DNA from: Chryseobacterium gleum
Lineage (GTDB): Bacteria; Bacteroidota; Bacteroidia; Flavobacteriales_D; Crocinitomicaceae
Direction: 5' to 3'
Length of the DNA: 64,000 nt
Assembly (NCBI GenBank): GCA_945862165.1
Contig: CAMAXI010000001.1
Span: 62,001-126,000 of the forward strand
A program made the position numbers and the translations under genes. Under the pieces are notes generated by a model that was given only the letters and a program-made list of their open reading frames with translations, ran no database searches and was not told the DNA's origin. Below are positions 42,877 to 62,260 of this stretch, one piece after another; within the stretch, counting starts at the first letter, position 1, and each line of letters opens with the position of its first letter.

Positions 42877-42909
42877 AAAAGAGGTTGCAATTGTAACCTC
42901 TTTTTTTTG
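42877..42909 (+). terminator. rho-independent terminator of the HtrA gene
   Basis: AAAAGAGGTTGCAA (42877-42890) pairs with TTGTAACCTCTTTT (42891-42904) with one wobble pair and almost no loop, continuing into a T-run (42901-42908). Confidence 0.85.
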
Positions 42910-55128: not shown

Positions 55129-55165
55129 TAAAAAAAGGCATTTGAATATTCAAATGCCTTTTCTT
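55129..55165 (-). terminator. rho-independent terminator of rpsO
   Basis: Perfect palindrome of 30 bases (55133-55162) with AAAAGGCATTTGAAT as one arm, followed on the - strand by a T-run. It lies about 20 bases past the rpsO stop. Confidence 0.9.
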
Positions 55166-60098: not shown

Positions 60099-61266
60099 AT
60101 TAAACATTGGTCTTTTTGGATTTGGGTGCGTAGGAAACGGATTATACGACGTTTTAAATAAGTCCAACCTATTAGATGCAAGTATAGCTAAGATAGTAGT
60201 TAAAAGTGCAGGAAAAAAACGTAGTATCAGTGAAGATCATTTTTCGTATGATAAAAACGATATTTTGACAGACGATACGATTAATGTTGTAGTAGAATTA
60301 ATCGACGATTCAAAGGCTGCATTTGAAATAGTATCTGAGGCATTATCCCGCAAAAAACATGTGGTAACAGCAAATAAAAAGATGTTAGCTGAAAACCTGG
60401 ATACATTATTAGCATTAGCGAAAGAAAATAAAGTTTCCTTGTTATACGAAGCATCTGTTGGAGGTTCTATTCCAATTATCCGAAATTTAGAGGAATATTA
60501 CAACAACGATTCACTTTCTGGTGTATTGGGAATTGTTAACGGTACAACTAATTATATTTTGACACAGACGAATTACGGTAAAGATTATGAAACTGCATTG
60601 GCAGAAGCTACCGAATTAGGTTTTGCAGAATCAGATCCAACATTGGATGTGGATGCGTACGATTCTAAATTTAAATTGTTGCTCTTAATCAAACACGCTT
60701 TTGGTTTGACTTTGGAACCAACACAAATTTTCAATTATGGTATTCGTAATATCAAACCTCAGGATGTAAAATATGCTTCTGAAAAAGGATATCGTTTAAA
60801 GTTATTCTCCCGTGGAGAAAAAATTGAAAACCGAATTTATGGTTTTGTGTCTCCTCATTTTATAACAGAAGATAATGTTGCATATAACGTAAATAATGAA
60901 TTTAACTCTGTAACTGTAGAAGCATTATTTTCGGATAAACAACTTTTCCAAGGGAAAGGTGCAGGTGCTTATCCAACAGCAAGTGCGGTTTTGTCTGATA
61001 TTTCAGCGCTTCAATTTGATTATTCCTACGAATATAAAAAATCTCATACAGTTGATTCGCTTGAATTCAGCGATGATCTTGCATTGAAAATATATGCCGG
61101 TTCGTCTTCAATTGAAAATTTAGAGATTTTTAATTGGTTAGAAAAAGAAGAAACCTTTCAAGGGAAAGATTATGCTTACATTACTGGTAAAATAAACTTG
61201 AAAAATATTATTGAAATTGACTTCAACAAAAAGCACGATGTGTTTTTTGCTGTGTTACCTGAGTAA
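60088..61266 (+). CDS. hom: homoserine dehydrogenase
   Basis: NAD(P)-dependent enzyme reducing aspartate semialdehyde to homoserine, the precursor of methionine and threonine. It is 392 residues. The N-terminal Rossmann motif is GLFGFGCVGNGLYDVL (about residues 8-23), then VVTANKKMLAENLDTLLALA, YEASVGGSIPIIRNLEEYYN and LGIVNGTTNYILTQ (about 145-158). EATELGFAESDPTLDVDAYD holds the catalytic-type Glu/Asp/Lys region, with KFKLLLLIKHAFG following. Its start overlaps the end of metX by 11 bases, so both fall under the SAM riboswitch. There is no aspartate kinase fusion or ACT domain. Confidence 0.95.
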   Translation: MRNKLNIGLFGFGCVGNGLYDVLNKSNLLDASIAKIVVKSAGKKRSISEDHFSYDKNDILTDDTINVVVELIDDSKAAFEIVSEALSRKKHVVTANKKMLAENLDTLLALAKENKVSLLYEASVGGSIPIIRNLEEYYNNDSLSGVLGIVNGTTNYILTQTNYGKDYETALAEATELGFAESDPTLDVDAYDSKFKLLLLIKHAFGLTLEPTQIFNYGIRNIKPQDVKYASEKGYRLKLFSRGEKIENRIYGFVSPHFITEDNVAYNVNNEFNSVTVEALFSDKQLFQGKGAGAYPTASAVLSDISALQFDYSYEYKKSHTVDSLEFSDDLALKIYAGSSSIENLEIFNWLEKEETFQGKDYAYITGKINLKNIIEIDFNKKHDVFFAVLPE

Positions 61267-61270
61267 GGAT

Positions 61271-61283
61271 GTTGCAATGCAAC
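61271..61283. repeat. short palindrome in the hom-transporter gap
   Basis: GTTGCAATGCAAC is a perfect 6-base inverted repeat around one base, flanked by GGAT and TACC. It resembles the core of larger Bacteroidota palindromes, possibly a decayed copy. Confidence 0.35.
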
Positions 61284-61311
61284 TACCATTTTTGAATAAA
61301 ATGAAAAATCT

Positions 61312-61833
61312 ATGAAAAACGAACCATTAGCTTGGTACATTGCAGGTCCATTAATTGGATTAATTGTACCATTATTATTGCTTTTAAAAGAAAAACAATT
61401 TGGAATTTCTTCCACCTATCGTTTTTTAATTTCTGGTTTTACCAAAAAACTAGGGTATTTTAATTACAACCGCGAACAAGATACTTGGCAATTTTATTTT
61501 GCGATTGGCTTGGTATTGACAGGATTGTTTTATAATTGGAATGGATATGATATGAATGCATTGAATACCACTAAAACCAACGTTGTTGGTTTTAGTGGTG
61601 GAGACGTAATGCATTACGTCTCTACGAGTGGTTTTTATGATGTATCCAATTGGGCTATCTTTCTGTTTGGTGGTGTATTGATTGGATTTGGATCTCGTTA
61701 TTCCAATGGCTGTACAGCAGGACATTGTATCATGGGGATGTCCCAATTTTCGTTAACATCCTTTATTGCAACGATTGGATTTTTTATTGGTGGTTTAATC
61801 GCAACTTACTTTATCATTCCTTATTTATTCTAA
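61312..61833 (+). CDS. YeeE/YedE-type sulfur transporter half, with palindromic insertion
   Basis: Membrane protein of 173 residues probably moving thiosulfate or another sulfur species, as shown for TsuA of this family. There are about four hydrophobic segments. The family signature GFGSRYSNGCTAGHCIMGM (about residues 125-143) carries the conserved cysteines of the transport path. The loop at about residues 85-108 (TTKTNVVGFSGGDVMHYVST) is encoded by two adjacent perfect inverted repeats at 61567-61625, so it looks inserted between helices while keeping frame. It is followed after one base by the second half-transporter. Confidence 0.85.
   Translation: MKNEPLAWYIAGPLIGLIVPLLLLLKEKQFGISSTYRFLISGFTKKLGYFNYNREQDTWQFYFAIGLVLTGLFYNWNGYDMNALNTTKTNVVGFSGGDVMHYVSTSGFYDVSNWAIFLFGGVLIGFGSRYSNGCTAGHCIMGMSQFSLTSFIATIGFFIGGLIATYFIIPYLF
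61567..61625. repeat. double palindrome inside a coding sequence
   Basis: First element: ACCACTAAAACCAAC (61567-61581), loop GTT, perfect complement at 61585-61599. Second: 61598-61625, whose core 61601-61622 is a perfect 22-base palindrome (arm GAGACGTAATG), extended by GTG.../...TAC with one wobble. From memory, GTAGAGACG...CGTCTCTAC palindromes are dispersed in Bacteroidota and cyanobacterial genomes. Confidence 0.85.
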
Positions 61834-61834
61834 A

Positions 61835-62260
61835 ATGAAAAAACTACTTAACATACTATCATTTATTCTTTTAGGAATCTACTTTGCTACGGCATTAACC
61901 GAAGCGCAAGCAATTTCGTGGTACCGTATACAAGAAATGTTTTATTTTAAATCATTCCATATGTATGGATTACTTGGTTCAGCAATTGCAACCGGTGCAT
62001 TAAGTCTTTGGATTATTAAAAAATTTAACATTAAAAGTGTAAATCATAACCCAATCGAAGTCAAGGATAAACCTTTTCAATGGAAAGCAAATTTCGGCGG
62101 GGGGATAATTTTCGGTTTAGGCTGGGGACTTACAGGTGCTTGTTCTGCGCCTTTATTTATATCTTTAGGTATAAATTGGAAAATCGGGATTCTTTTATTA
62201 ATTGGAGCTCTGGTTGGAACTTATTTATACGGAATATTAAAAGACAAATTACCACATTAA
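61835..62260 (+). CDS. DUF6691/YeeE-type sulfur transporter second half
   Basis: Membrane protein of 141 residues with four hydrophobic segments, the usual companion of the gene before it. FATALTEAQAISWYRIQEMF (about residues 18-37), FHMYGLLGSAIATGA, and GLGWGLTGACSAPLFISLG (about 97-115) with its conserved Cys are the recognisable signatures. The two short proteins together correspond to one full-length YeeE/YedE transporter. It begins one base after the previous stop and one base precedes the OsmC gene, so the three are translationally linked. Confidence 0.87.
   Translation: MKKLLNILSFILLGIYFATALTEAQAISWYRIQEMFYFKSFHMYGLLGSAIATGALSLWIIKKFNIKSVNHNPIEVKDKPFQWKANFGGGIIFGLGWGLTGACSAPLFISLGINWKIGILLLIGALVGTYLYGILKDKLPH

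Follow-up and report, generated by a model that had tools for sequence, protein, structure and literature searches.

The window analysed here, a stretch of 64,000 nucleotides, comprises positions 62001-126000 of contig C1 of the source genome (2.89 Mb, 38 contigs). On its forward strand at 61312..61833 it contains a gene for a YeeE/YedE-like Sulf_transp half-transporter of 173 aa (PF04143, E 3.2e-11). The next open reading frame, 61835-62260, also matches PF04143, to the other part of the profile. The transporter frame runs uninterrupted across two palindromes, and its translation contains NTTKTNVVGFSGGDVMHYVST. The first is a perfect hairpin of 33 nt on the forward strand (61567..61599), with arms of 15 bp and a loop of 3 nt (ACCACTAAAACCAAC-GTT-GTTGGTTTTAGTGGT). 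The second, placed at 61598..61625 by the family pattern and by the positions in orthologues, is a 28-bp palindrome of the GTAGAGACG double-foot REP family, with a single non-pairing position (GTGG against CTAC); a palindrome scan gives it a perfect 22-bp core, GAGACGTAATGCATTACGTCTC, at 61601..61622. Because the whole 28-mer spans 61598-61625, the two structures overlap by 2 nt. The 28-mer is translated as GGDVMHYVST and is followed by a right flank, GAGTGGTTTTTAT (61626..61638, forward strand). The first-pass annotation had described a hairpin with 15-base arms and a 3-base loop next to a 28-base palindrome with a perfect core of 22, lying at 61567-61625 in frame in a sulfur-transporter gene; both structures are real and the frame is intact.

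Perfect arms of at least 15 bp with a loop of at most 3 nt were absent from 10 dinucleotide-preserving shuffles of the window and occur twice in the real sequence. Together with the family counts below (48 places, against none for a reversed pattern), this rules out a chance origin. The other palindrome of that size, at 55133-55162 (AAAAGGCATTTGAATATTCAAATGCCTTTT), has perfect 15-bp arms and lies outside any open reading frame of at least 150 aa. A near-perfect palindrome at 42877-42904, in which 13 positions of each arm are paired, likewise lies outside any such frame. Just upstream of the transporter gene, at 61263..61287 on the forward strand, is a single-tag REP (GTAA + GGATGTTGCAATGCAACTACC) that belongs to another RAYT (REP-associated tyrosine transposase) family and differs from its family pattern by 2 mismatches. 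The preceding gene, for homoserine dehydrogenase, takes its stop codon from the TAA of this GTAA.

The transporter gene is under purifying selection, with pairwise dN/dS values of 0.10-0.18 between the source genome and six congeneric orthologues, and on these values it looks functional. In G005 there is an in-frame TGA near the end of the gene, which may be an error in the draft sequence or a sign of decay. A PDB search aligned the transporter to TsuA/YeeE over residues 119-164 only (E 0.002), and the position of the palindromes in a loop between membrane helices therefore rests on hydrophobic stretches judged by eye. A structure predicted for the transporter alone had a mean pLDDT of 44.8 and was set aside.

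The transporter locus in related species

Seven congeneric sequences, that of the source genome included, cover the transporter loop. Elsewhere in the genus, G006 provided the first 57 residues only, the sole match in G011 was 37% identical, and the search found no transporter match in G003, G004, G007 and G008. Residence of the palindrome in frame is shared by several congeneric species: the identical 22-bp core lies at the same position in the source genome, G009 and G005, and a decayed form of it in G010. G001 has a different palindrome, GTAGGGAGCGTAAAATTTTACGCCCCTAC, at the same place and also in frame, between AAAACCACC and GAGTGGTTTT. The length differences among the relatives are whole codons. 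The proposal that the segment is an insert is borne out by two orthologues, in G012 and G002, whose loops contain no palindrome and are too divergent to give the exact sequence before insertion.

The surrounding sequence provides clues to the origin of the first hairpin. In G010, G009 and G005 the palindrome also has GTGGTTTT on its left, and in G001 the inverted form (AAAACCAC) stands to the left of the different palindrome found there. The palindrome is preceded by AAAACCACC-GTT-GGTGGTTTT in G010, by AAACCACC-CAT-GGTGGTTTT in G009 and by AAAACCAAC-GTT-GTTGGTTTT in the source genome, with GAGTGGTTTT after it in all three; G005 has an eroded version of the left hairpin, with CAATGGTTTT after the palindrome. 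The longest perfect arm is 15 bp in the source genome, 9 in G010, 8 in G009 and less than 6 in G005. The first hairpin is thus locus-specific, and among the seven sequences compared it is perfect in the source genome only. An insert made of two palindromes, as originally described, therefore stands for the second palindrome, which is dispersed, but not for the first, which is no dispersed element. Our best reading, an unproven one, is that the first hairpin would have arisen when the flank (AAAACCAC / GTGGTTTT) was copied inverted at the palindrome, and that hairpin-templated correction probably made it perfect later, in the source lineage. This origin is read from the orthologues only, because no inverted flank lies flush with the source transporter copy (it scores 0 on the scale used below, and the copy in the RAYT gene 0.5).

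Correction of this kind has been described: template switching can create or restore perfect stems by inverted copying (Monttinen and Loytynoja 2022, PMC8794818). It may serve well as a model for the first hairpin, although the hairpins treated there are in RNA genes, whereas the present one lies next to a palindrome with dispersed relatives. One could go further, and suppose that both palindromes were formed in place by such quasi-palindrome correction during replication, without a mobile element. The perfect form of the first hairpin in the source genome, with imperfect forms in the relatives, would fit this, as would the compensated arm changes in several other copies of the family (e.g. 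AGAGCC/GGCTCT and AGATAC/GTATCT). The second palindrome, however, belongs to a dispersed family and has a RAYT that carries it, and we regard formation of both in place as very improbable.

A dispersed family and its RAYT genes

The 28-bp palindrome is a member of a dispersed family, GTAGAGACGCAATGCATTGCGTCTCTAC. The pattern GTAGRGRCGN10CGYCYCTAC was found, with at most one mismatch, at 48 places in 8 of the 13 genus genomes, with none for the reversed-pattern control. With at most three mismatches it occurs at 16 places in the source genome, the transporter copy included, against 4 for the reversed control. The resemblance of the second palindrome to dispersed ones, suggested from the window alone, is thereby confirmed. 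The family type extends beyond the source lineage: GTAGAGACGN10CGTCTCTAC was found in at least 118 stretches of the genome collection, and the 80 loci listed for it are, by their record titles, mostly from Bacteroidota and Cyanobacteria, with single records of other phyla. A literature search for the string GTAGAGACG gave, among the matches listed, titles that look unrelated. It is worth adding that adjacent repeated half palindromes resembling GCGCAACGCATTGCGG are present at two loci (L082 and L396) on contig C3 of G000, at about 43.8-45.1 kb.

In the source genome, a perfect palindrome of the family also lies in frame inside a 241-aa RAYT open reading frame at C1:203946-204635, providing the REP-associated transposase that the first-pass annotation had suggested looking for. 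Peptides resembling DVMHYVST likewise recur in other proteins, as GRDAMHCVST in RAYT frames. This RAYT contains MPNHFH, WQ and YIINNP, corresponding to the motifs NH[IFV]H, WQ and YIxNNP of subclass 2.4. It matches the REP_Tyr_transpos model NF047646 with E 4.1e-15, but its 55.9 bits fall short of the curated cut-off of 80. The Pfam Y1_Tnp search gave no listing for it, and in a PDB search TnpArep (4er8) appeared at E 0.44, which is not significant. Its orthologues in G005, G010 and G008 also hold the palindrome in frame, that of G008 stopping soon after it; in RAYT frames of other genera, the corresponding place has palindromes that are in other frames or differ in sequence. The palindrome-carrying RAYTs were found by tracing palindromes into open reading frames. 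The Y1_Tnp genes found with the Pfam model were also considered as carriers and were rejected, since the 28 loci examined (26 places) contain no GTAGRGRCG, CGYCYCTAC or paired core.

A long palindrome is taken here as one with arms of at least 12, at most one mismatch and a loop of at most 1. The 30 RAYT loci that scored best in a search of the bacterial family, whose query naturally has a palindrome of its own, have one inside the frame in 14 cases (G008 included), within 400 bp in 10 and none in 6. These 30 are quoted out of 49 distinct loci because the other 19 were chosen partly for a nearby palindrome. As a yardstick, 2 of the 42 window frames of at least 150 aa hold a long palindrome, the transporter being one. 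Among 80 genomes of the bacterial family, 23 have both palindromes and a RAYT, 5 palindromes only, 14 a RAYT only and 38 neither. A RAYT match is thus present in 23 of 28 palindrome-bearing genomes, compared with 14 of 52 palindrome-free ones (Fisher p 4e-6, with no phylogenetic correction); the 5 of 28 with palindromes and no RAYT match speak against the RAYT as mobiliser. Three further RAYTs were found in the source genome. The frame of the second (C5:3892-4542) holds a palindrome of its own dispersed family, found at 9 places, and the third (C1:457516-458247) has its own family at 13 places, two of them within the gene. In the fourth (C6:79026-79610) the palindrome matches only loosely, and the gene was scored as having none at the threshold. 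In four RAYT genes (L333, L352, L369 and L371), tandem repeats occupy the variable linker beside the palindrome.

These features resemble those of a published group. The tnpAREP/RAYT genes of subclass 2.4 are described as abundant in Cyanobacteria and Bacteroidetes (Quentin et al. 2018, PMC6006769). At one end their REPs have a GT[AG]G foot, matched at the opposite end by its reverse complement, and a REP is described in frame within the RAYT gene, as a rule between HuH and Y. The transporter palindrome has such feet, ending in GTGGAGACG...CGTCTCTAC (GT[AG]G / C[TC]AC), and the numbers of places in the source genome and in the genus make it a dispersed, multicopy element as double-foot REPs are. 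The RAYT motifs and the REP in frame in the RAYT gene agree as well. Unlike the REPs described in that work, the present copy is in a transporter gene. REPs lying wholly within open reading frames and encoding amino acids, as the transporter copy does, were described by Di Nocera et al. (2013, PMC3733652), so residence of REPs inside open reading frames, and in frame in RAYT genes, has already been published. In that account, GTAG repeats are assigned to Proteobacteria, Cyanobacteria, Chloroflexi and the PVC superphylum, and Bacteroidetes appear only under CGTC.

The first-pass annotation had drawn a parallel with Rickettsia palindromic elements. The parallel is sound in that these are likewise palindromic DNA in frame in unrelated proteins. 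The intragenic CGTC repeats of R. conorii correspond to RPE-4 and RPE-6, and CGTC repeats are reported to have no association with transposase genes (PMC3733652). The present palindrome differs from both in its GTAG feet and in the RAYT gene that carries the element. Identity with a Rickettsia element or CGTC REP was accordingly rejected: the insertion is in frame, but the ends are GTAG/CTAC in place of a CGTC tag, and fit subclass 2.4 REPs.

We conclude that the 28-bp palindrome most likely belongs to a family of double-foot GTAG REPs, and that the subclass-2.4 RAYT, whose own gene carries the perfect sequence in frame, is its probable mobiliser. Mobilisation by the RAYT goes beyond the linkage observed and is suggested by analogy with published work on other RAYTs. 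The palindrome would have entered a variable loop between membrane helices through single-strand insertion mediated by the RAYT, and only copies that kept the frame would have survived.

Inverted flanks and their possible origins

Many copies of the family are enclosed by a locus-specific inverted repeat of unique sequence beyond the 28-bp core. With a score of at least 6 this is true of 40 of 54 distinct genus copies, these not being 40 independent events because the copies include orthologous groups; in a mispaired control, which joined the left flank of one copy to the right flank of another, the proportion was 3.5%. The inverted flanks are flush with the core in 32 of the 40. The source genome contributes 9 arm-bearing copies out of 15, one of its 16 pattern places having no locus. 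In four other genera (12 genomes), 23 of 41 copies taken from 116 exact places have inverted flanks (mispaired control 1%). In a cross-phylum sample the proportion was 2 of 86 (control 0.2%; locus L155 was dropped for lack of flank). Two further families in the source genome were scored with no mispaired control. The second RAYT family has scores of at least 5 in 9 of 9 copies and at least 6 in 8, and the single-tag GTAA family, its tag judged by eye, scores below 5 in 11 of 13. The inverted flanks are mostly missing both from this single-tag family and from the cross-phylum copies, 84 of which score below 6; they are thus no general property of hairpins, which is a further argument against formation in place by template switching. 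Inverted flanks are frequent in the source bacterial family, and are unmentioned for subclass 2.4 in the passages of PMC6006769 considered, Figure S10 aside. In the literature searched, with that figure outside its coverage, we found no description of REPs with such locus-specific flanks, and for this bacterial family they are apparently unreported.

We tentatively suggest that subclass-2.4 RAYTs join one REP end only, after which the palindrome would fold back and serve as primer for copying of the flank. On this view the transporter hairpin would be a scar left inside a gene, and orthologous sites would be refilled by palindromes of different RAYT families. The 3' end of the palindrome would sit flush on the target strand and prime copying of the flank, so that, ahead of rejoining through microhomology, every insertion would yield an inverted target copy (X-palindrome-X'). 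Self-priming of this sort would be impossible for REPs with an unpaired tag, and those of the same genome are mostly without inverted flanks. The model would account both for the flush inverted arms and for their scarcity in the single-tag family. Alone, it leaves unexplained the armless cross-phylum copies and the 14 of 54 genus copies that score below 6.

Alternatively, the inverted flanks could be pre-existing hairpins, such as terminators, whose loops received RAYT palindromes. Orthologous sites that are empty or differently filled speak both ways on this question; the strict pattern labelled many sites as empty, and those counted here are the ones that were re-read. At L113:3413 the filled site reads AAAAACT-palindrome-AGTTTTT, and the empty orthologue already has AAAACAGTTTT. 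At L096:2842 a perfect TGTTTTTTTTAAAAAAAACA stands empty in the source genome, and the site is filled by the palindrome in G010; against this, the arm of G010 is missing in G009 and G008, and G008 has an unrelated hairpin there, which again favours pre-existing hairpins. Terminator-like hairpins were seen by eye at some unoccupied orthologous sites (those of L075 and L076). The palindrome family filling a site varies between species at no fewer than four places (the transporter, L070, L075 and L379), which also fits hairpins that were there first; at L070, L075, L379 and L380 the species differ in palindrome sequence family, with different arms. Pointing the other way, the gene end GGATGCAAT has an inverted copy across the palindrome in G005 and the source genome and none in G001, G010 and G008, although in these three a further palindrome lies some 15 bp beyond it. 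The arm is missing from the transporter of G012. In the RAYT gene L352, one of the two arms forms part of a tandem array and the second is the inverse of that unit; L333 and L371 show the same less distinctly. At L380 and L383 short orthologues are without core and arms, and could equally be deletions. Taken together, we regard pre-existing hairpins as possible but doubtful.

A third view is that the paired flanks are selected, the palindromes serving as bidirectional intrinsic terminators with an A-run before and a T-run after. The right flank is T-rich (at least 5 T in 8) in 18 of the 40 arm-bearing genus copies, and several copies, as judged by eye, are situated between convergent genes or at positions occupied by terminator-like hairpins in other species. 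However, 22 of the 40 right flanks are not T-rich, 25 of the 40 arms contain at least two G/C, and long locus-specific arms are also found inside coding RAYT genes, where no terminator is expected. Nor does such a function fit the transporter copy. As an explanation of the paired flanks it is therefore unlikely, although selection for termination may shape the T-rich arms, and not those inside RAYT genes.

Implications for REP insertion

The mechanisms by which REPs are disseminated are described as poorly understood (PMC8266576), and the TnpAREP of E. coli is reported to have a specific nuclease activity (PMC6006769). REPs accompanied by inverted copies of neighbouring DNA provide a sequence footprint from which the path of strand transfer could be read and tested. 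In the transporter, a gene under purifying selection, several species have retained such an insert in frame, and more widely the pattern of inverted flanks may reveal the mode by which REPs insert.
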